A program made the position numbers and the translations under genes. Shown piece by piece: positions 915-12,412 of a stretch of DNA of 64,000 nt; the first letter of the stretch is position 1, and every line of letters begins with the position of its first letter. Source of the DNA: Catenuloplanes atrovinosus. Lineage in GTDB: Bacteria; Actinomycetota; Actinomycetes; Mycobacteriales; Micromonosporaceae. The stretch is from assembly GCF_031458235.1 (NCBI RefSeq), contig NZ_JAVDYB010000001.1:7589001-7653000 (forward strand). The letters are read 5' to 3'. The notes below the pieces were generated by a model. It had not been told where the DNA came from and ran no database searches. It saw nothing but the letters and a program-made list of their open reading frames with translations.

Positions 915-3900
915 GTGGCAGGATGCAGCGTGCCCCCGTTGAGCGCGACACCCTTCGACGGCACCACGGCCACGCCCACGTTCGTGGCGGACCTGCACAT
1001 CCACTCCAAGTACTCGCGCGCCTGCAGTCGTGATCTCAACATGCCGAACCTGGCGTGGTGGGCCCGGCGCAAGGGCGTGGCGCTGCTCGGCACGGGTGAC
1101 TTCACGCACCCCGCATGGTTCGACCACCTTCGTGAGACGCTGAAGCCCGCGGAGCCCGGCCTCTATCGGCTCGCGCCGGACGTCGAGGCGGACATCGCCC
1201 GGCGCCTGCCGCCGCGACTGTCGAGCGCGGCCGAGGCGAGTCCGATGCGCTACATGCTCTCGGTGGAGATCTCGACGATCTACAAGCGGGGCGACCGTAC
1301 GCGCAAGGTCCACCACCTGATCTACATGCCGGACCTGGACGCGGCGGCCCGGTTCAACGCCGCGCTGGGCCGGATCGGCAACCTCGGCTCGGACGGGCGG
1401 CCGATCCTCGGGCTGGACTCGCGCGACCTGCTGGAGATCGTGCTGGAGGCGAGCCCGGACGGCTACCTGGTGCCGGCGCACATCTGGACGCCGTGGTTCT
1501 CCGCGCTGGGCTCGAAGTCCGGCTTCGACGCGATCGCGGACTGCTACGCCGATCTCGCGCCGCACATCTTCGCGGTGGAGACCGGGCTCTCCTCGGACCC
1601 GGCGATGAACGGGCGGGTGAGCAGCCTCGACGCGTACCAACTGGTCTCGAACTCGGACGCGCACTCGCCGCCGGCGCTGGCCCGCGAGGCGACCGTGCTC
1701 TCCTCCGCGCTGGACTACTACTCGGTCCGGGAGGCGCTGCGCACCGGCGACGGGCTCGCCGGGACGATCGAGTTCTTCCCGGAGGAGGGCAAGTACCACG
1801 CGGACGGGCACCGGAACTGCGGGATCAACTGGGAGCCGTCCCGGTCCCGCGAGGCTGGCGGCATATGCCCGGAATGTGGCAAGGGTCTGACGATCGGCGT
1901 GCTGAGCCGGGTCGAGGATCTGGCCGACCGCGCGCCGGACGTCGCGCGGCCGAACGCCAAGCGGGTCACGCACCTGGTGCCACTGGCCGAGATCCTGGGT
2001 GAGATCAACGCGGTGGGCGCCCGGTCGAAGACCGTGGAGGGGCAGCTGCACTCGCTGATCGCGGCGCTCGGCTCCGAACTGGACATCCTGACCACGGTCC
2101 CGGTGGCGGACGTGACCGCGGCCGGCGGCGAGCTGATCGGCGAGGCGATCGCGCGGCTGCGCCGCGGTCAGGTGCACAGAATCCCGGGGTACGACGGGGA
2201 GTACGGGATCATCAAGCTGTTCGAGCCCGGTGAGCTGGGCTCCTCGGGCGGCGCAGCGCAGGCGGACACGCTGTTCGACCTCCCGGTGCCGCAGCAGCGG
2301 GTGCCGGCCCGGAAAACTCCGGCGAAGGCCGCGAAGAAGGCCGCCCCCGCACCCGAACCCGCCGCGGACCCGACCACGCCGCTGCTGGTCACGGCGTCGA
2401 GCCCGGCCGGCTCCGGCGACACGGCGGCCCGCCCGCGCCCGGCCCGTGGCGTCGCCTCGGTCCCGCAGAAGAAGCCGCAGGCCACGCCGCGGACCGCGCC
2501 GCCGCCGATCGCGCCGCCGCCGTCGCCGCACGAGCCGTTCGAGCCGATGCTCTCCGGCATGGAGGAGGTCGGCACCGGGCTGCTGGACCGGCTGGACGCG
2601 ATGCAGCGGGTGGCCGCGTCCGCGCCGTCCGGCCCGCTGCTGATCGTGGCCGGCCCGGGCACCGGCAAGACCCGCACGCTGACCCACCGGATCGCGTACC
2701 TGTGCGCGGAGCTCAACGTGTTTCCGGAGCAGTGCCTGGCGATCACGTTCACCCGGCGCGCCGCCGAGGAGATGCGCGAGCGGCTGGACGGGCTGCTCGG
2801 CCCGGTCGCGGAGGACGTCACGGTCTCCACGTTCCACTCGCTGGGCCTGCAGATCCTCCGGGAGAACGCGACCGCGGCCGGGCTGCCGGCGGACTTCCGG
2901 ATCGCGGACGACGCGGAGCGCGCCGCCGCGCGGGCCGAGGCCGGGGAGGACGACGCCGCGTACGCCAAGCTGCTGCGCGCGGACGGCCTGGTCGACCTGG
3001 ACGAGTTGGTCACGCTGCCGGTCGCGCTGCTGAGCGAGTCGAAGGCGCTGGTCGAGGAGTACCGCGCGCGCTGGCGGTGGATCTTCGTCGACGAGTACCA
3101 GGACGTGGACGCGGTGCAGTACGACCTGCTGCGCCTGCTCAGCCCGCCGGACGGCAACCTGTGCGCGATCGGCGACCCGGACCAGGCGATCTACTCGTTC
3201 CGTGGCGCGGACGTCGGCTACTTCCTGCGCTTCGCGCAGGACTTCACGGACGCCCGCACGGTACGGCTGACCCGCAACTACCGCTCGTCCGCGCCGATCC
3301 TGGCCGCGGCCGTGCAGTCGATCGCGCCCGCCTCGCTGGTGCGCGGCCGGCGGCTGGACCCGGCGCGGCTGGACCCGGAGGCGCCGCTGGTCGGGCGGTT
3401 CGCGGCCGGGTCCGCGGGCGAGGAGGCGGAGTTCGTCGCGCGGACCGTGGACGAGCTGGTCGGGGGCGTGTCGCACCGGTCGATGGACGCGGGCCGGGCG
3501 GACGGGCACACGTCGAACATCTCGTTCTCGGACATCGCGGTGCTCTACCGTACCGACGCGCAGTCCGGGCCGATCCTGGACGCGCTGCACCGGGCCGGCG
3601 TCCCGGTGCAGAAGCGCTCGCACAACCGGCTGCGGGACCGCGCCGGCGTCGCCGCGATCGCGCGCGAGCTGCGGCACCAGGACGGGCTGGGCGGCTCGGT
3701 CGCGGCCCGGGTGCGGCTGACCGGGCAGGTGCTGGCCGAGCGGTACGCGACGCCCACGCTGGACGCCGCCGCCACGGTCGAGCCGGCCGACATCTGGACC
3801 GCGGTGGAGATGCTGAAGCCGCTGGCGCTGCGCTGCGGCGACGACGTGCAGCGCTTCCTGGGCGAGATCGCGCTGGGCGCGGAGGTGGACACGCTGGACC

Positions 3901-4244
3901 CGCGCGCGGAGGCGGTCACGCTGCTGACGCTGCACGCCGCGAAGGGCCTGGAGTTCCCGGTGGTGTTCCTGGCCGGCTGCGAGGACGGGCTGCTGCCGAT
4001 GCGGTTCCCGGGTGAGCGACCGTCGTCCGAGGACGTCGACGAGGAGCGGCGGCTGTTCTTCGTGGGCCTCACCCGCGCCCAGGACCGGCTCTACCTGAGT
4101 CACGCCGCGCGACGCTTCCGGTACGGTGCGGAGCGGGACAGTGTGCCGACGCCGTTCCTGTCCGACATCGACGCCGGGCTGTTCGAGCGGCTCGGTGCCG
4201 CCGAACCGCGCAAACCGAAGGACCGTCAGCTACGCCTGCTCTAG
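915..4244 (+). CDS. EndoQ-like PHP endonuclease fused to UvrD/Rep (SF1A) helicase
   Basis: A 1109-residue fusion. Residues about 20-440 match the endonuclease Q family (TIGR00375-type PHP protein): DLHIHS (His28, His30), GTGDFTHP, SVEIS, KVHHLIYMP, VPAHIWTPWF and SNSDAHSP supply the PHP metal ligands, and HRNCGINW plus GICPECGKGLTIGVL (about 299-326) form the zinc site typical of EndoQ. Characterised EndoQ enzymes nick 5' of deaminated bases. A Pro/Ala/Lys-rich linker (about 445-550) leads to a full SF1 helicase: Walker A AGPGTGKT (about 579), TFTRRAAEEM, STFHSLG, DEYQD (about 725), GDPDQAIYSFRGAD, LTRNYRSS, TLHAAKGLEFPVV and VGLTRAQDRLYLSHA. All motifs look intact. The start is a GTG at 915; GTG 930 is also possible. 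The linked activities suggest repair of deaminated DNA; this role is inferred. Confidence 0.88.
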   Translation: MAGCSVPPLSATPFDGTTATPTFVADLHIHSKYSRACSRDLNMPNLAWWARRKGVALLGTGDFTHPAWFDHLRETLKPAEPGLYRLAPDVEADIARRLPPRLSSAAEASPMRYMLSVEISTIYKRGDRTRKVHHLIYMPDLDAAARFNAALGRIGNLGSDGRPILGLDSRDLLEIVLEASPDGYLVPAHIWTPWFSALGSKSGFDAIADCYADLAPHIFAVETGLSSDPAMNGRVSSLDAYQLVSNSDAHSPPALAREATVLSSALDYYSVREALRTGDGLAGTIEFFPEEGKYHADGHRNCGINWEPSRSREAGGICPECGKGLTIGVLSRVEDLADRAPDVARPNAKRVTHLVPLAEILGEINAVGARSKTVEGQLHSLIAALGSELDILTTVPVADVTAAGGELIGEAIARLRRGQVHRIPGYDGEYGIIKLFEPGELGSSGGAAQADTLFDLPVPQQRVPARKTPAKAAKKAAPAPEPAADPTTPLLVTASSPAGSGDTAARPRPARGVASVPQKKPQATPRTAPPPIAPPPSPHEPFEPMLSGMEEVGTGLLDRLDAMQRVAASAPSGPLLIVAGPGTGKTRTLTHRIAYLCAELNVFPEQCLAITFTRRAAEEMRERLDGLLGPVAEDVTVSTFHSLGLQILRENATAAGLPADFRIADDAERAAARAEAGEDDAAYAKLLRADGLVDLDELVTLPVALLSESKALVEEYRARWRWIFVDEYQDVDAVQYDLLRLLSPPDGNLCAIGDPDQAIYSFRGADVGYFLRFAQDFTDARTVRLTRNYRSSAPILAAAVQSIAPASLVRGRRLDPARLDPEAPLVGRFAAGSAGEEAEFVARTVDELVGGVSHRSMDAGRADGHTSNISFSDIAVLYRTDAQSGPILDALHRAGVPVQKRSHNRLRDRAGVAAIARELRHQDGLGGSVAARVRLTGQVLAERYATPTLDAAATVEPADIWTAVEMLKPLALRCGDDVQRFLGEIALGAEVDTLDPRAEAVTLLTLHAAKGLEFPVVFLAGCEDGLLPMRFPGERPSSEDVDEERRLFFVGLTRAQDRLYLSHAARRFRYGAERDSVPTPFLSDIDAGLFERLGAAEPRKPKDRQLRLL

Positions 4245-4329: not shown

Positions 4330-4953
4330 ATGGCCGTCACCGTCGTCTCCGCGTCCGGCGCCACGCTGACCCGGGTGGGGATCGCGGCGGCGTTCGAGGG
4401 TGCGCCCGACCTGCGGCTGGTCGGCGCCGCCGCGTCCGGCGCGGAGGCGCTGGCGCTGCTCGGCGCGCAGCGGCCGGACGTGGTGCTCCTCGACCTCGAC
4501 CTGACCGACGGCAACGGCCTCACCTGGGGTGCCGAGGTCCGGCGCAGCCACCCGGCGCTGGGCATCGTGCTGCTGGCCGCGCGCGACGACGACCTGCTGC
4601 TGCGCGCGCTGGAGGCGGGGATCTCCGCGTTCCTGCCGCGGACCGAGGAACTGGGCGCGATACTGGCCGCGGTCCGGCACGCGGCGGCGGCGCCGAGCTC
4701 GTTCACCGCACCCGACCTGGCCGGTGCGCTCAGCCGGCGGCGGCACTCCGCCACCGTGGTCAGCCCGCGCGAGCGCGAGGTGCTCAACCTGCTGCGCGAG
4801 GGCCTGACCGTGCCGCAGATCGCGACCGCGCTGGGCCTGAGCGAGTCGACCGTGAAGACGTACCTGGCCCGGATCTACGACAAGCTGGGCGTGACCGGAC
4901 GCGAGCAAGCCGTGATCGCGGCGACGGACCGCGGTTTGCTGGCCGGTCAGTAA
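4330..4953 (+). CDS. LuxR/NarL-family regulator with degenerate receiver domain
   Basis: 207 residues: a receiver-like domain (1-120) and a C-terminal LuxR helix-turn-helix (about 140-205; SPREREVLNLLREG, IATALGLSESTVKTYLARIYDKLGV). The phosphoacceptor position is present (Asp55 in VVLLDLDL), but the acidic pair after strand 1 is missing (MAVTVVSASGATL), the strand-4 Thr/Ser is Ala (VLLAA) and the strand-5 Lys is Arg (FLPRTEE). It is therefore probably not a standard phosphorylated receiver and may act without a kinase; none is adjacent. It lies tail to tail with the pilus locus and overlaps the small gene that follows by 7 bases, so a role in pilus control is possible but unproven. Confidence 0.85.
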   Translation: MAVTVVSASGATLTRVGIAAAFEGAPDLRLVGAAASGAEALALLGAQRPDVVLLDLDLTDGNGLTWGAEVRRSHPALGIVLLAARDDDLLLRALEAGISAFLPRTEELGAILAAVRHAAAAPSSFTAPDLAGALSRRRHSATVVSPREREVLNLLREGLTVPQIATALGLSESTVKTYLARIYDKLGVTGREQAVIAATDRGLLAGQ

Positions 4954-5247: not shown

Positions 5248-6201
5248 CTAGTTGGTGAAGGTATCGATGATCCGCAGTACGCCCGGGCCCAGAATGACCA
5301 CGAACAGCGCCGGGAACAGGCAGAACACCAGCGGGAACAGGATCTTGATCGGTACCTTGCGGGCGCGCTCCTCGGCGCGCTGCCGGCGCTTGACCCGCAT
5401 CTCGCGCGACTGCTCGCGCAGTACCGACGCGACCGGGATGCCCAGCTCGGTGGCCTGCACGATGGACATCATGGCGTTGCGCAGCTCCGGGATGGTGGTG
5501 CGGTCGGCCAGCGCGCGCAGCGCCTCCGCACGGCGCTTGCCCATCTGCATCTCCTGCAGCGCACGGGCCAACTCGCCGCTGAGCGGGCCCTCGATCCCGG
5601 CCGCCACCTGCATCAGCGCGGCGTCGAACCCGAGACCGGCCTCGACGCACAGCGTCAGCATGTCCAGCGTGTCCGGCAGCGTGTCCAGCAGCCGCTCCTG
5701 ACGGCGCTGCGCCGCGTTGAGCACCAGCAGGTAGGGCCCGCACAGCCCGATCAGGCCACCGGCCAGCGCGCACAGCACCGGCGTACCGATCGCGGAGAGG
5801 TCGCGGGCCGCCACGAGCCCGAGACCCAGAAGCGCACCGGCGGGTACGCCCACGACGACGCCCCAGCCCTGTGCTTCGAGGATGCGGGCCGGCGGCCAGT
5901 TCGGCGGGTTGCCGGCGTGGTCGAGCGCGCGCTGCAGCCAGCCCGCGGCCGCGTCCGGGGTGAGCCGGCTGGCCAGCAGCGTGACGGCGCGGCCGAGCGC
6001 GTTGCGGCCGTACGGCGCGGTCGACAGCGCGGTACGGCGGCCGTGCGCGGCGCCCGGCGCGTACACCGCGTTGATGTCGGCGAGCGCGCGGGCCAGCCCG
6101 CGACGGCCGGTGTCGCCCACGACCAGCGCCAGGAACAGGATGAGCAGCGCCGCGAAGATGACGGTGAGCCCGGCGCCGAGCACGATCAGGTCCACGGCCA
6201 C
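5248..6201 (-). CDS. tadC: Flp pilus assembly inner-membrane protein TadC (T2SS-F family)
   Basis: 317 residues, one of the two GspF-like platform proteins of the tad pilus machine. It has an N-terminal membrane helix (about 5-28), two central helices around 115-165, the cytoplasmic T2SSF domain (LPDTLDMLTLCVEAGLGFDAAL, EGPLSGELARALQEMQMG, RALADRTTIPELRNAM, QATELGIPVASVLREQS) and a C-terminal helix (KILFPLVFCLFPALFVVILG). It starts 1 base after the tadB stop, so the two are coupled and probably form the platform complex together. Confidence 0.92.
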   Translation of the reverse strand: MAVDLIVLGAGLTVIFAALLILFLALVVGDTGRRGLARALADINAVYAPGAAHGRRTALSTAPYGRNALGRAVTLLASRLTPDAAAGWLQRALDHAGNPPNWPPARILEAQGWGVVVGVPAGALLGLGLVAARDLSAIGTPVLCALAGGLIGLCGPYLLVLNAAQRRQERLLDTLPDTLDMLTLCVEAGLGFDAALMQVAAGIEGPLSGELARALQEMQMGKRRAEALRALADRTTIPELRNAMMSIVQATELGIPVASVLREQSREMRVKRRQRAEERARKVPIKILFPLVFCLFPALFVVILGPGVLRIIDTFTN

Positions 6202-6202
6202 C

Positions 6203-7185
6203 TCAGACCTCGACCCGGACGACGCGGGTGAGCCAGAAGCCGCCGAGCACGACCAGCACCACGCCGGCGAGCAGCAGCAGGATGCCGCGCGGGTCGGTGA
6301 GCAGCGGTGCCACGTACTCCCGGCGGGTCAGGAACATGAACGCGCCGAGCACGATCGGCAGCGCGAGCAGCACCCAGGCGGAGAGCCGGCCCTCCGCGGA
6401 GAGCGCGCGGACGTGGCCGCGCAGCAACTCGCGCTCGCGGATGGTGCTGATCGTGGTGCTCAGCACCTCGGCCAGGTTGCCACCGACCTCGCGCTGCACC
6501 CGGATCGCGATGACGGTCCAGGCCAGGTCCTTGTTGTTCATGCGCTTCGCGACCCGGTCCAGCGCCTCCTCCAACTCCATGCCGAGCCGGGCCTCCGCCA
6601 GCGCGCGGCTGAACTCGCCGGCCAGCGGGTCGACCGACTCACGGACCATGGCGTCCAGCGCCTGCTGGAGCGAGAATCCGGAGCGCAGCGAACCGATCAC
6701 CATCTGGATCGCGTCCGGCAGCGCGGCGGCGAACCGGTCGTCGCGGCGGCCCGCGAGGTGCCGGTGGAACAGCGCGGTGGCCAGCACGCCGAGGACCGCG
6801 CCGAGCGGAAAGCCGAGCGGGCCGAGCAGCAGCGTGAGGACGACCGCGAGCCCGAGCGCGACGCCGATCCGGACCAGCAGCCACTCGCTCGGCCGCAGCT
6901 TCAGGCCAGCCCGGTCGAGCTGCCGGGACATCCGCTCCTCCCAGCCGCGGGTGCGCACCACCTGCTCGGCGGCGGAGACCGCGACCCGGGCGAACGGGGA
7001 CGCGGACCGGGACGCGGCGGACCGGTCGGCGCGGCCCGCGGTCGCCAGCTCCTCCACCTGCGCCATCCGGCGGCGCCGCTCCACCAGGCCGAACATCGGC
7101 GAGAAGATGAGCAGGAAGATCGCCAGCAGCGCCAGGAACACCAGCACCGCCATCGCGATCCGGAACGCCGGCGTACCCGTCTCGA

Positions 7186-7189
<4 letters not shown>
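6203..7189 (-). CDS. tadB: Flp pilus assembly inner-membrane protein TadB (T2SS-F family)
   Basis: 328 residues. N-terminal membrane helix (about 10-32), a central pair of helices (about 105-140, LLVRIGVALGLAVVLTLLL), then the T2SSF domain (LPDAIQMVIGSLRSGFSLQQAL, PLAGEFSRALAEARLGMELEEAL, MNNKDLAWTVIAIRVQREVGG) and two C-terminal helices. Its ATG overlaps the cpaF stop by 4 bases (7186-7189), which implies translational coupling to the ATPase it is expected to contact. The paralogue TadC follows directly. Confidence 0.92.
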
Positions 7190-8688
<1,499 letters not shown>

Positions 8689-8740
8689 GCCGCCTCCACT
8701 TCGCTCTCATCTGGACTGAACCGCTCGGACATGGCGGATC

Positions 8741-9919
8741 TCACCTCTTTCCGCGGCGGGACAGCATGGACCTCAGGCCCTTGGGGGTGGCGACACCGGC
8801 GCCGATCCGGTGCGCGGCCAGGTCGCGGATCGCCTCGCTGACCGGGTGCGCCGGCGAGTCGAGCACGATCGGCACGCCCCGGTTGATGGAGATCGAGACG
8901 TCGCGGCTGGCCGGAATCTGCGTGGTGAGCGGAATCCGCAGCACGCGCTCGATGTCGGCCGGCGTCACGCCCAGCCGCGCGTCCGCCCGGTTCAGGACCA
9001 CCAGCCGGTTCTCCTTGCGGTAGTCGAGCACGTCGAACGTGTCGAGCAGGATTCGCAGGTTCTTGATCGCGGTCACCGCGGGCGTCGCGACCAGCAGGTA
9101 CTGGTGCGAGGAGTCGAGCGCGGCCAGCACGTGGTCGTTGAAGACCGGCGGGCTGTCCACCACCACGTAGTCGTACATGCCGCGGGCCAGGTAGAGCACC
9201 TCGCTCACCAGGTCCCGGCTGATCTGCTCGGCGATCGTCGGCACCACCGGGGCGAGCAGCACGTCCACGCCGGGGCAGTAGTTGGTGACCATGGTGCGCA
9301 GGCCGGTCTCGTCGATCCGGTCCGCCACCGGCACCACGTCCGCGATGGTGCGCTCCGGCGAGAGCTGCAGCATCAGCGCCACGTCGCCGAGCGTCAGGTC
9401 CAGGTCGATCAGGCAGACCCGCTTCTCGCCACTGCCGGCCAGCGCCACCGCCAGGTTCGCCGCCAGCATGGTCTTGCCGCAGCCGCCCTTGGCCGCGTAA
9501 ACCGTGATCACCTTGCCGTCCACCGCGTCGGCCCGGTCCGAGGTCTTCGCGTGCAGACCGCCGTGCATGCGGCGGGACAGGTCCTGCGAGCGCGCGCACG
9601 CGGCGAGGATGTTCGTCGGGTCGTTGACGTCCGCGACCTCGCGCACACCGGAGCGGATCGCCTCGGCCAGCACGTTCACCTCGAGCTGGTGGCGCAGCAG
9701 CACCACGCCGAGCGACGGCCGGGCCAGGCGCTGGCGGGCGGCCAGGCTCACCGCCTCGGGCAGCGGCGTGTTCGGCCCCATCAGCACCAGTTGCTCGTCC
9801 GGGTCCTCATTGAGCAGGGCGTAGACCTCGTCGAGGCTGGCGGCGGTGCGTACCACGCCGCCGACCAGCATGCCGAAGTGCTGGGCGGCCTGGCGGGACG
9901 GCTCGTACAGGATGGTCAC
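8741..9919 (-). CDS. cpaE: CpaE/TadZ-like pilus localisation ATPase (MinD/ParA fold)
   Basis: 392 residues. The first 125 form a receiver-like domain without clear phosphorylation motifs (MTILYEPSRQAAQHFGMLVG), as is normal for TadZ/CpaE. The deviant Walker A AKGGCGKTMLAANLAVAL (about 143), CLIDLDLTLGDVALML and YDYVVVDSPPVFNDHVLAAL mark a MinD/ParA-type ATPase. Proteins of this family place the tad machine in the cell. The gene lies 7 bases after cpaB and upstream of cpaF in one operon. Confidence 0.9.
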   Translation of the reverse strand: MTILYEPSRQAAQHFGMLVGGVVRTAASLDEVYALLNEDPDEQLVLMGPNTPLPEAVSLAARQRLARPSLGVVLLRHQLEVNVLAEAIRSGVREVADVNDPTNILAACARSQDLSRRMHGGLHAKTSDRADAVDGKVITVYAAKGGCGKTMLAANLAVALAGSGEKRVCLIDLDLTLGDVALMLQLSPERTIADVVPVADRIDETGLRTMVTNYCPGVDVLLAPVVPTIAEQISRDLVSEVLYLARGMYDYVVVDSPPVFNDHVLAALDSSHQYLLVATPAVTAIKNLRILLDTFDVLDYRKENRLVVLNRADARLGVTPADIERVLRIPLTTQIPASRDVSISINRGVPIVLDSPAHPVSEAIRDLAAHRIGAGVATPKGLRSMLSRRGKR

Positions 9920-9926
9920 GGCGACC

Positions 9927-10682
9927 TCACCCGAACACGTTGTTGTCGTCGACGCCGACGCCGGCCTGCACGTCCGACTCCTCGGTGAGCAGCGCCAGAT
10001 AGATCGCGCCCGCGTTCGCCGCCGTGATGATCTTTGCGGCCTCCACCGTGGACGCGGCCACCGTGACCAGCGTGGTCGGCTTCGCGTCCGGCGCGCCGTC
10101 CTGCGGCGTGATCGTGGTCTCGCCGGTGCCGTACTCGCCGACCGCGATCACCTCGATCCGGGGCAGCAGCACCGCGGTGCCGCGCACGCCCTCACCGCCG
10201 ATCGCCTTGCTGCCGTTCGCGGTCGCGGTGTACGACGCGAACAGCGCCACGTGCGCGCCCGGCCGCACGTACCCGGCCACCTGCTGCGCCATCGAGGCCT
10301 CGAAGCTGACCGCCACCTTGTCGCTCGGGATGGCCAGGCCGCTGGACGTCTCCGTCGCGTTCGCGAACATGCTGCGCAGCAGCAACTGGCCCGGTTGCAG
10401 CGTGGACGTGACCAGCTGTTTCTCCAGCTCGGGCGTGATCGAGGTGACCGCGCCCTCGGGCAGGCTGGCGGCCGGCATGCGGGTGGCGACCGCGAGCTGC
10501 CGGTCACGGATCACGGTGCCGGTGGTGCCGGTCGCGATGCGCTGCTGGGCGACCAGCACCTCGATAGCGCTGACGTCGTCGACCGCCCGGTCGTCGGCCC
10601 GGTTCACGTAGTAGAGCACCGCCGCGGTGCCGAGCACGGCCAGGACGATCGCCAGGAAGACGGCGAGGATACGACGAGACAT
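9927..10682 (-). CDS. cpaB: Flp pilus assembly protein CpaB/RcpC (SAF domain)
   Basis: 251 residues. An N-terminal signal/membrane anchor (RILAVFLAIVLAVLGTAAVLYYV) is followed by a SAF domain (VLVAQQRIATGTTGTVIRDRQLAVATRMPAASLPEGAVTS) and the RcpC domain (MAQQVAGYVRPGAHVALFASY, then the IEVIAVGEY strand region). CpaB is an extracytoplasmic part of the tad machine. The gene lies between tadG (24 bases upstream) and cpaE (7 bases downstream). Confidence 0.88.
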   Translation of the reverse strand: MSRRILAVFLAIVLAVLGTAAVLYYVNRADDRAVDDVSAIEVLVAQQRIATGTTGTVIRDRQLAVATRMPAASLPEGAVTSITPELEKQLVTSTLQPGQLLLRSMFANATETSSGLAIPSDKVAVSFEASMAQQVAGYVRPGAHVALFASYTATANGSKAIGGEGVRGTAVLLPRIEVIAVGEYGTGETTITPQDGAPDAKPTTLVTVAASTVEAAKIITAANAGAIYLALLTEESDVQAGVGVDDNNVFG

Positions 10683-10706
10683 GAAGGACGGTCCGTTTCT
10701 TGATCG

Positions 10707-11930
10707 TCAGCCGATGATTCGGATCGAGGAGGGGCCGGCCGCGCCGCCGCCCGCCGGGTCGTCGGTGAAGTAGCCGAAGAGACAGGAGCTCGTGAAGCCC
10801 CCGGTGGGCGCGCAGCGGGTCTGCCCGGTCAGCGTCGATCGCATGTTCCACCGGTCGTCCGGGCCCGGCCGGGCCGGCTTGCGGTCCGGCCAGCCCATCC
10901 GGTACCACCCGGTGACCACGAAACCGCGCACGCTCTCGACGTACGCCCGGCCGGTGCGGTCCGGCCGGTAGACGGCCACCGGCACCGGGGTCTTGCTCTC
11001 GACCAGTTCGTTCAGGCGTGGGAAGCAGCCCCGCGGCTTCGGCCGCCGGCGGGACTCGCCCCAGAACCGGTCGGCGTCACCGCCGCCGCCCTGGAGCGCG
11101 TGGACGCCCCCGACCGTGAACGACTCACTGCACGGCGCGGGGTCCGCACCGAGCACCTCGCCGGCGAAGCCGTCCGTCGCGTTGCTGCGACGTGGCCAGC
11201 CCGGGCTCCGGCAGTAGCCGTACGCGGGCGACCCCGGGCTGATCGAGCGGAACGGCAGCTTGACCTCCGCGTCGACGTCGGCCAGATGTCCGCCGCCCGT
11301 CGGGGCCGGTTGCCGGCCGTGGTCGTCGAGCGTCTTGCGCACCACGCAGTCCGACATGACCACCGGCAGCCCGCCGGTCACCGTGCTGACCGCCTGCCAG
11401 GTGGCGCGCGCGCACGCGCCCACCGTGACGCCGTCGGTGGCGGTCAGCGCACCGGCGAAGGCCGGCGGGAGCGCGGTGCTGCCGCCGGGACGCTCGGTCC
11501 GCACGCGTACCTCGATGTACTCGCCGGTGGCGGACGCGCTGCCCAGGCAGCGGGTCAGGTTGCCCGCCGGAGCGGGACACGAGTGGATCGGCCCGGGGCG
11601 GGACAGCGGGACGTCGATCCGCACGGCGCCGCAGACCGCGCTGATCTCGACCGCGGCGTCCTTCACGTTGTCCCCGGCGTACCGCCGGGCCTCGTCCAGC
11701 ATGTCGGGCGCGTTGCACTGGGCCCGGCGCAGCGCGCACACCTTGGCCACCGCGATGGCGGCCGCGTCCGCGGCGGTCTGGAGCTGCGCCCGCTCCGCGT
11801 AGATCAGCCCCACGTCCACGGTCAGCGCGCCCAGTGCGGAGACCGTGCCGCTGGCGAACAGCATGGCGACGAGGATGGCGACCGCGCCGCGGTCCCTCCG
11901 GCGCGATCGCCATCCGGTCAGGCGCGGCAT
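10707..11930 (-). CDS. tadG: TadG-like pseudopilin/pilus assembly protein
   Basis: 407 residues. The N-terminus has an Arg-rich leader and a prepilin-like cleavage context RDRGAVAILVAMLFASGTVSALG followed by VDVGLIYAERAQLQTAADAAAIAVAKV, the usual TadG_N signature. The rest is a long extracytoplasmic domain with several cysteines and no family I recognise. It overlaps tadE by 13 bases. In tad systems TadE, TadF and TadG are minor pseudopilins processed by the same peptidase as the major pilin. Confidence 0.82.
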   Translation of the reverse strand: MPRLTGWRSRRRDRGAVAILVAMLFASGTVSALGALTVDVGLIYAERAQLQTAADAAAIAVAKVCALRRAQCNAPDMLDEARRYAGDNVKDAAVEISAVCGAVRIDVPLSRPGPIHSCPAPAGNLTRCLGSASATGEYIEVRVRTERPGGSTALPPAFAGALTATDGVTVGACARATWQAVSTVTGGLPVVMSDCVVRKTLDDHGRQPAPTGGGHLADVDAEVKLPFRSISPGSPAYGYCRSPGWPRRSNATDGFAGEVLGADPAPCSESFTVGGVHALQGGGGDADRFWGESRRRPKPRGCFPRLNELVESKTPVPVAVYRPDRTGRAYVESVRGFVVTGWYRMGWPDRKPARPGPDDRWNMRSTLTGQTRCAPTGGFTSSCLFGYFTDDPAGGGAAGPSSIRIIG

Positions 11931-12334
11931 GGCATGACCGCCTTGGCAGCCAGCCGCAGGGGGGTGTCCACGGCCATGCCGGCCAGCATGGTGAGCGGCG
12001 TGACGAACTCGAAGCCGTACGCCACCTCGTACGTCGCCTCGTGGGTGCCGCCGACGGTGCAGTCACCGTCCGGGACGGCGATCCAGAGGCCGGGCTCGAG
12101 ATCCGTGCCGGGTGGGCCGCCCATCACCGTACCGGCGACCGCGTCGGCCTCCTCCTCGTCGACCAGCGTGAGCGCGCGTGCGCCCTCCCGGGCCGCCTCG
12201 GTGACCTTGATCTGCGCGTTCAGCATCCGGCCGAAATCGATCATGGCGAACACGACCATCAACAGCAGCGGGAGGACGAGCGCGGTCTCCACCGCCGTGG
12301 CGCCCCGATCGGCACGCCTCCCCCTGAGCCGCAT
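11918..12334 (-). CDS. tadE: TadE-family minor pseudopilin
   Basis: 138 residues from the ATG at 12334, which has an AAGG ribosome site 7 bases upstream; a GTG at 12358 would add 8 residues. The leader RADRG precedes ATAVETALVLPLLLMVVFAMIDFGRMLNA, the standard TadE hydrophobic segment with Glu at position 5 after the expected cleavage glycine. The C-terminal part is small and extracytoplasmic. It is encoded between the major pilin and tadG. Confidence 0.88.
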   Translation of the reverse strand: MRLRGRRADRGATAVETALVLPLLLMVVFAMIDFGRMLNAQIKVTEAAREGARALTLVDEEEADAVAGTVMGGPPGTDLEPGLWIAVPDGDCTVGGTHEATYEVAYGFEFVTPLTMLAGMAVDTPLRLAAKAVMPCRA

Positions 12335-12412
12335 GACTGCCTTCCGTCTCGTTCCCACTCGGCGTGTGCGGACCTCACGACCCGCCCCCGTACGGGCCGT
12401 GAGGTCACTCGC

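Follow-up and report, generated by a model that had tools for sequence, protein, structure and literature searches.

Endonuclease Q (EndoQ) joined in a single chain to an SF1A helicase is encoded at positions 915 to 4244 of a 64,000-nucleotide stretch of the Catenuloplanes atrovinosus genome, the whole of which is referred to here as the window. The fusion probably represents, in the Micromonosporaceae, an old bacterial family whose members carry EndoQ and a helicase dedicated to it in one clamp-docking chain that would remove deaminated and abasic bases by clamp-tethered nicking and peeling. What emerges here is a helicase clade that is dedicated to EndoQ and fused to it. In addition, the chain has a beta-clamp-type motif at its far end, a counterpart of the link between PIP box and PCNA in archaeal EndoQ, and the motif is kept on both partners where these are separated.

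Identification of the EndoQ-like half

The gene starts with GTG, lies on the plus strand (as do all of its features given below), and is open over all 1109 codons, the coordinates including the stop codon. The EndoQ half is single-copy in the 8.9-Mb, one-contig source genome. An AlphaFold model was built from an alignment of 55 fusions, consisting of the window protein and 54 others left after thinning at 87% identity in the EndoQ half. The model had a mean pLDDT of 83.4 and contained two well-folded lobes, between which lies a Pro/Ala-rich disordered linker (residues 445–552, positions 2247–2570, pLDDT <50). The relative arrangement of the lobes was not fixed in the model (pTM 0.55), and the C-terminal tail (residues 1097–1109) was of low confidence. 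The fusion and its flexible linker, both of which had been proposed in a first-pass annotation made from the sequence, were thereby confirmed.

The EndoQ domain comprises residues 21–444 (positions 975–2246). A PDB sequence search with this half at E ≤10 returned three EndoQ sequences (5zb8, E 2.9e-42; 7k31; 7k30), the PfuEndoQ chains being matched at E values of about 1e-42 to 1e-41, and the sole match of another kind was a weak one to a release factor (E 0.19). The first lobe of the predicted structure was aligned with PfuEndoQ (5zb8_B) over 382 residues at 2.3 Å with a VIA-align Z score of 44.4, and the whole EndoQ fold, namely the PHP domain, the zinc ribbon and the C-terminal domain, is kept. 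The first-pass annotation had called this half EndoQ-like and had asked for a structural comparison, which agreed with it. A PHP phosphatase or a polymerase PHP domain, the competing assignment it had named, was rejected, as neither surfaced in the PDB sequence, Pfam or structure searches; in Pfam, the N-terminal half had a single sub-threshold match, to DUF3039, and none to PHP.

The metal ligands of PfuEndoQ are reported to be Glu76, His84 and His139, the loss of any of which abolishes activity, and His139, Gly169 and Ser171 to form a steric gate against normal bases (PMC8307549). H133, H189 and D248 of the window protein correspond to Pfu H84, H139 and D193, and G224 and S226 of the pocket correspond to Pfu G169 and S171; all five residues are invariant in the 55 aligned fusions, as is E118, which was equated with Pfu E76 by eye from its position because the PDB sequence alignment left that stretch unaligned. 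The PDB variant sequence 7k31 has Asn at the Pfu D193 position. Among the zinc ribbon ligands (H299, C302, C318 and C321, positions 1809–1877), the three Cys residues are present in all 55 sequences, and the first ligand is His in 53 and Cys in two. Histidine is able to bind zinc, and may do so here. The zinc site of the first reading is amended in that its first ligand is His, where PfuEndoQ has Cys. Judging from the sequence and the structural model, the N-terminal half is EndoQ-like, and nicking activity is predicted for it.

Occurrence of the fusion among bacteria

EndoQ is known so far mainly as an archaeal, stand-alone nickase. A scan of genomes confirmed at least 584 relatives, of which the best 80 were kept, an uneven sample because they were ranked on a mixed Pfu/actinobacterial query. 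These comprised 66 complete fusions, nine contig-cut or frame-broken fusions, and five loci without an in-frame helicase, among which L137 is a frame-broken fusion and L146 is a two-gene form (L and G numbers denote loci and genomes). Another 29 loci added 24 complete fusions, three stand-alone genes and two incomplete ones. The domain-architecture survey suggested by the first reading therefore covers 109 loci, i.e., 90 complete fusions, eight without an in-frame helicase and 11 incomplete ones, the 90 fusions including close relatives and at least one species twice (L057 and L103). With this many complete fusions, the gene is neither an artefact nor confined to the source genome. L137 is counted among the eight, and is labelled "split" in both the EndoQ and helicase trees.

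The records with complete fusions are labelled as ten phylum-level lineages, Actinomycetota, Myxococcota, Pseudomonadota, Chloroflexota, Gemmatimonadota, Binatota, Planctomycetota, Gastranaerophilales, Elusimicrobiota and Verrucomicrobiota, although single labels may be wrong because many of the records are metagenome bins. The window sequence groups with Micromonosporaceae in a quick tree of EndoQ. An earlier survey of Actinomycetota based on TIGR00375 had found the gene in five of 198 genomes, one of the matches being weak.

Several loci deserve separate mention. L099 and L105 are metagenome bins labelled Myxococcales and Proteobacteria, and their copies are close to actinobacterial ones: L099 adjoins these on the EndoQ tree, and L105 is 64% identical to the EndoQ half of the window protein. 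Their placement reflects either a binning error or a transfer. The stand-alone relatives L164–L167 (Chloroflexota) and L181–L185 (Pseudomonadota) are 42–52% identical to the window domain, sit on long branches, and possibly have a different function. In L137 (Gastranaerophilales), the frame of the fusion is lost within a stretch of roughly ten A residues at the junction of EndoQ and linker (L137 positions 6735–6765). The break may be a sequencing error, a real break or a slippage site. L137 was accordingly rejected as a second separated pair, since it reads as a fusion gene with its frame broken at the A run. L059 and L074 are also frame-broken.

The helicase belongs to a reduced clade dedicated to EndoQ

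The C-terminal half (residues 553–1097, positions 2571–4205) matched UvrD-helicase (E 5.3e-64) and UvrD_C (E 3.6e-32) in Pfam, and the second lobe of the predicted structure matched UvrD of D. radiodurans over 515 residues (Z 38.7). The SF1A core motifs (Walker A, DExQ, NYRS, motif V and motif VI) and the 1A/2A fold are all present. Walker A, or motif I, reads GPGTGKT (residues 580–586, positions 2652–2672) with K585 and T586 in 55 of 55 aligned fusions, and D726, E727, R790 and R1054 are likewise invariant. These matches uphold the earlier assignment to the SF1A class. On the other hand, the helicase had also been called "full", a description that holds for the core motifs and not for 1B and 2B. 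The span from Walker A to Walker B is 145 residues here, with a median of 166 in the fusions and 190 in ordinary UvrD proteins, and that from motif IV to motif V is 217 residues, compared with a median of 211 in the fusions and 276 in ordinary UvrD (segment lengths were readable in 49 of the 54 fusions and 17 of the 21 UvrD proteins). The shortened spans therefore indicate that 1B and 2B are reduced. In addition, the scores fell below the NCBIfam equivalog cut-offs for pcrA (379 of 911 bits), uvrD (301 of 1144 bits) and rep (286 of 951 bits). At the level of sequence, then, the helicase is a reduced SF1A subfamily rather than a full PcrA/UvrD. The Rep helicase is freed from auto-inhibition when its 2B subdomain is lost, and by analogy the motor of the fusion may be less auto-inhibited and more active.

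EndoQ was present in 68 of the 298 genomes of the window's order, and the fusion-type helicase (E ≤1e-60) in 67. Both halves (helicase E ≤1e-60, EndoQ E ≤1e-3) occurred together in 65 genomes, EndoQ alone in three (G311, G361 and G368), and the helicase alone in two (G204 and G276), where the frame runs into a contig end on the EndoQ side. In a quick tree of the helicases, a branch with an SH-aLRT of 99 separated 32 fusions, L137 and the partner gene of L146 from 21 ordinary UvrD/PcrA-type proteins. The distances of the two halves were correlated with a Mantel r of 0.885, the largest value among 999 permutations being 0.22. As for six genomes with a stand-alone EndoQ, the helicases from G501, G502, G730 and G777 were placed in the ordinary UvrD/PcrA clade, the best helicase match in G505 reached 1.8e-24 and is absent from the tree, and no helicase match below 1e-10 was found in G924. 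The helicase clade is dedicated to EndoQ, its members occurring with EndoQ in every case in which the contig extended far enough to tell.

Clamp-binding-type motifs at the C-terminus and in the linker

The consensus of the beta-clamp-binding motif is given as QL[S/D]LF or QxxLF (PMC12309361). The window protein ends in QLRLL (residues 1105–1109, positions 4227–4241), a relaxed form of it. With a pattern that also allows L, I, M or V as the last residue (Q[LMF]x[LF][LFIMV]), an exact terminal match was found in 84 of the 90 complete fusions, the commonest pentapeptides being QLRLI (23), QLRLL (18) and QLSLF (10). The remaining six have QLSLL, QLTLF, QRTLF or QLDLF at most 17 residues from the end, or a terminal QPRLL or QQRLF. 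The terminal pattern was absent from all 21 ordinary UvrD paralogues and present in four of 2410 other closed frames of at least 200 aa from the same loci, all four of which are separated or frame-broken members of the family; the 21 UvrD proteins are the fairer control, because the 2410 frames include non-coding ones. Q1105 is invariant in the 55 aligned fusions, although its nearest neighbours in the tail vary. These results suggest that the C-terminal motif is a putative beta-clamp tether in an accessible tail, through which the protein would bind DnaN.

A second signal, LF[DEA] within the first 30 residues after the EndoQ fold, was found in 72 of the 90 fusions, compared with 0.9% in shuffled linkers, and its Q-type form in 35 of the 90. 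The window carries a degenerate version, ADTLF (residues 450–454, positions 2262–2276), where Micromonospora relatives have QETLF or QDTLF; because of this copy, the evidence for the linker site is the weaker of the two. The first-pass annotation, which had described the two domains, was silent on both motifs and on the spread of the fusion across phyla.

The two halves are naturally separated in one case, L146 (Omnitrophota). Its EndoQ ends in DQLTLF and stops, and the next gene on the same strand (MNSEQQ...) encodes a fusion-type helicase that ends in QMTLF, so that each part bears a clamp-type motif of its own; no terminator was scored between the two genes. A clamp link has been described for EndoQ itself. 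In TkoEndoQ, a C-terminal PIP box mediates binding to PCNA, which stimulates the enzyme, a PIP box has been predicted in PfuEndoQ, and beta-clamp motifs have been noted in bacterial EndoQ homologues (PMC4858679; for the P. abyssi homologue, see PMC3820547).

In the genus g151 of the window's family, two of the seven listed genomes keep EndoQ, in both cases as a stand-alone gene (L060 and L061), and the fusion-type helicase was found in none of the seven, unlike most of the family. The tails of these two EndoQ proteins end in PTLFE and PELFD, resembling the linker motif.

A proposed clamp-tethered nick-and-peel scheme and its alternatives

Nicking and strand opening in one chain is, from the sequence, the most economical reading of the fusion. 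In the scheme proposed here, the QLRLL-type motif, perhaps aided by the linker motif, would tether the enzyme to the clamp at or behind the replication fork. The EndoQ domain would flip out a uracil, hypoxanthine, xanthine or abasic residue and nick on its 5' side, leaving a 3'-OH. The fold and the active site for this step are observed, and the activity is expected from that of PfuEndoQ, TkoEndoQ and B. pumilus EndoQ. The tethered helicase would then load at the nick, travel 3' to 5' on the undamaged strand and peel off the damaged strand as a 5' flap. Finally, a polymerase on the same clamp would extend the 3'-OH, a flap nuclease or exonuclease would remove the flap, and ligase would seal the strand. 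The whole would amount to a glycosylase-free, clamp-guided repair with a built-in helicase step. SF1A helicases move 3' to 5', and a motor with this polarity on the intact strand would therefore raise the 5' end that carries the lesion, as removal requires, while the primer end would stay available to the polymerase on the clamp. EndoQ is reported to cut 5' of the lesion and to leave a 3'-OH and a 5'-phosphate (PMC4357722). That paper, of 2015, draws two pathways, one by polymerase strand displacement with Fen1 and another in which EndoQ and EndoV both cut and removal follows "by helicase activity", and a later review pairs a helicase with FEN1 (PMC8438529). Neither the pathway scheme of the former nor the corresponding text of the latter names the helicase, and the fusion could supply it.

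A wider proposal is held here only tentatively, as less likely than the scheme itself. With its two clamp-type motifs, in the linker and at the C-terminus, one chain might bind both protomers of the dimeric beta clamp at once, and nicking, peeling and hand-over of the 3'-OH would then be ordered on one ring without glycosylase, AP endonuclease or MutS. This would constitute a general, unrecognised bacterial pathway, the sample holding ten phylum-level lineages.

Several results weigh against the nick-and-peel scheme. Identity to PfuEndoQ is 28–29% over 382 residues, and the score of 144.7 bits for TIGR00375, a hypothetical equivalog of NCBIfam, is below the cut-off of 326.6. As drawn in the 2015 paper, the pathway with a helicase requires two cuts rather than one, and the other pathway proceeds by polymerase strand displacement without a helicase. 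The source genome holds four UDG-family matches, one EndoV and NucS; because UDG-family and EndoV genes are present, the enzyme would be an additional route here rather than the sole one, and may be a backup. For the same reason, the "self-contained" repair route of the first reading was an overstatement, the more so as polymerase, removal of the flap by a flap nuclease or exonuclease, and ligase would still be needed. Many actinobacterial members end the C-terminal motif in L or I, not F, and their affinity for the clamp may therefore be lower.

The distribution is also patchy. The gene was found in seven of 396 Actinomycetota genomes, in six of 251 Chloroflexota genomes (two fused and four stand-alone), and in 20 of 349 Pseudomonadota genomes (ten fusion-length frames, seven stand-alone, and three fragments or contig-cut copies). 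The stand-alone relatives in Chloroflexota (four of six) and Pseudomonadota (seven of 20) end without a clamp-type motif, and no helicase was seen in their flanks; some stand-alone relatives occur in Actinomycetota too. Such relatives are common, and the helicase is therefore not indispensable. The quick EndoQ tree requires eight changes of the fused label, a tree with long branches (Pfu, L062, L181, L182 and L185) and many open forks that does not settle how often the fusion was gained or lost. Furthermore, conservation of an operon was not seen outside one family.

The main rival to the nick-and-peel scheme reverses its order. The helicase would open the duplex at the fork or behind RNA polymerase and feed single strands to EndoQ, which would scan them for uracil and hypoxanthine, so that the motor would serve the search for lesions and not their removal. 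PfuEndoQ is reported to prefer U and Hx in single-stranded over double-stranded DNA, whereas abasic sites are cut best in duplex (PMC11354406). A flexible linker of about 100 residues would permit the hand-over of strands. However, the separate helicase of L146, with its own clamp-type motif, fits a sequential hand-over on the clamp at least equally well, and nicking of a single-stranded template at the fork would be expected to break the chromosome. This order of events is regarded as unlikely.

It is also conceivable, though less probable still, that the nuclease now acts on a different lesion or structure, such as a mismatch, an oxidised base, a ribonucleotide or a flap, and that the helicase and clamp tail serve that pathway. 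The low identity to PfuEndoQ, the change of Cys to His in the zinc ribbon and the score below the TIGR00375 cut-off would all be explained in this way, but none of the 55 aligned fusions departs from the Gly and Ser of the pocket or from the metal-binding Glu and His, and the EndoQ fold is kept as a whole.

A role as an anti-phage nuclease-helicase, acting like Gabija on phage DNA that contains uracil or hypoxanthine or is otherwise modified, appears very improbable. PADLOC models of GajB matched the helicase half (best 235 bits), and antiviral roles of bacterial EndoQ have been raised in a review (PMC8307549). The GajB match is due to the shared UvrD helicase class, however, and NCBIfam pcrA scored higher, at 379 bits. 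The gene was present in one copy in 20 of 20 genomes, and no matches were found in plasmid records, phage records or viral contigs, on which ground a mobile element was rejected; upkeep of the chromosome is therefore favoured over defence. The grouping with Micromonosporaceae and the clamp-type motif also speak against an anti-phage role. Least probable of all is that the two activities are independent and that the fusion merely fixes their stoichiometry, as the long, poorly conserved linker and the lack of a fixed arrangement of the lobes might suggest, since the helicase clade is dedicated to EndoQ and both separated partners bear clamp-type motifs.

Comparison with known systems

The fusion shares with the known EndoQ enzymes (PfuEndoQ, PF1551; TkoEndoQ, TK0887; B. 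pumilus EndoQ) the fold, the active site, the base pocket, the position of the zinc ribbon and a clamp-binding-type motif near the C-terminus. PfuEndoQ (424 aa) and TkoEndoQ (421 aa) stand alone, whereas the fusion has a dedicated helicase behind the EndoQ domain, its clamp-type motif at the helicase C-terminus, a second and worn copy of that motif in the linker, and His as the first zinc ligand. Likewise, its helicase has the core motifs and overall fold of UvrD, PcrA and Rep, but differs from them in forming a separate clade below the equivalog cut-offs, with reduced 1B and 2B and a short C-terminus that carries a clamp-type motif.

Bacterial mismatch repair by MutL/MutH, UvrD and the beta clamp is alike in that a nick is followed by UvrD-class unwinding from it, with the clamp as organiser. 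There, separate proteins are steered by MutS, whereas in the fusion lesion recognition, nick, helicase and clamp-type motif would be combined in one chain. Gabija consists of a nuclease, GajA, and a UvrD-like helicase, GajB, which are separate proteins in a defence operon. The nuclease of the fusion is EndoQ, unrelated to GajA, and no sign of mobility or of a defence context was seen here. To our knowledge, EndoMS/NucS, a repair endonuclease of Archaea and Actinobacteria, has no helicase part. Its C-terminal region in Corynebacterium is reported to bind the beta clamp and to be needed for full activity (PMC8228993). It is, however, a different nuclease from that of the fusion, with mismatches as its targets and double-strand breaks as its products (PMC11551767).

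A description of an EndoQ-helicase fusion was not found in a full-text literature search, most subscription papers being beyond its reach, and the architecture may be displayed, uncommented, in domain databases. If the nick-and-peel scheme is true, many bacteria hold an unnoticed glycosylase-free, clamp-organised route for deaminated and abasic DNA, perhaps overlooked because annotation would show only a UvrD-type helicase. As a single chain, the fusion would also lend itself to studies of the hand-over from nicking to unwinding and resynthesis on a sliding clamp.

Gene neighbourhood and regulation

Control of the SOS or PafBC type was rejected. An SOS-box pattern occurred at chance level in the window (five matches against a mean of 2.66, with 17 of 100 shuffles reaching five), and the exact PafBC-type pattern was absent from the 240 loci searched.

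In a set of 31 diverse loci, each family of neighbouring genes was common to at most three others. The one neighbour that recurs widely is a moaA-type gene, which lies upstream in 32 of the 90 fusion loci, 24 of them labelled Micromonosporaceae and eight of the window's family, and downstream response regulator and Tad-type genes recur in three or four loci. In the window, Pfam searches of ten flanking genes identified MoaA/ThiS, response regulator and Flp/Tad pilus-type genes. Directly upstream, positions 21–856 of the plus strand encode the C-terminal portion of a molybdenum cofactor protein of the MoaA type and, after it, a ThiS/MoaD-type protein. On the other side, a LuxR-type response regulator gene (positions 4330–4953, plus strand) separates the fusion gene from a Flp/Tad pilus-type cluster on the minus strand (positions 5251–12358), which encodes two T2SSF proteins, a T2SSE ATPase, and ParA-type, RcpC/CpaB, Tad- and TadE-like proteins.

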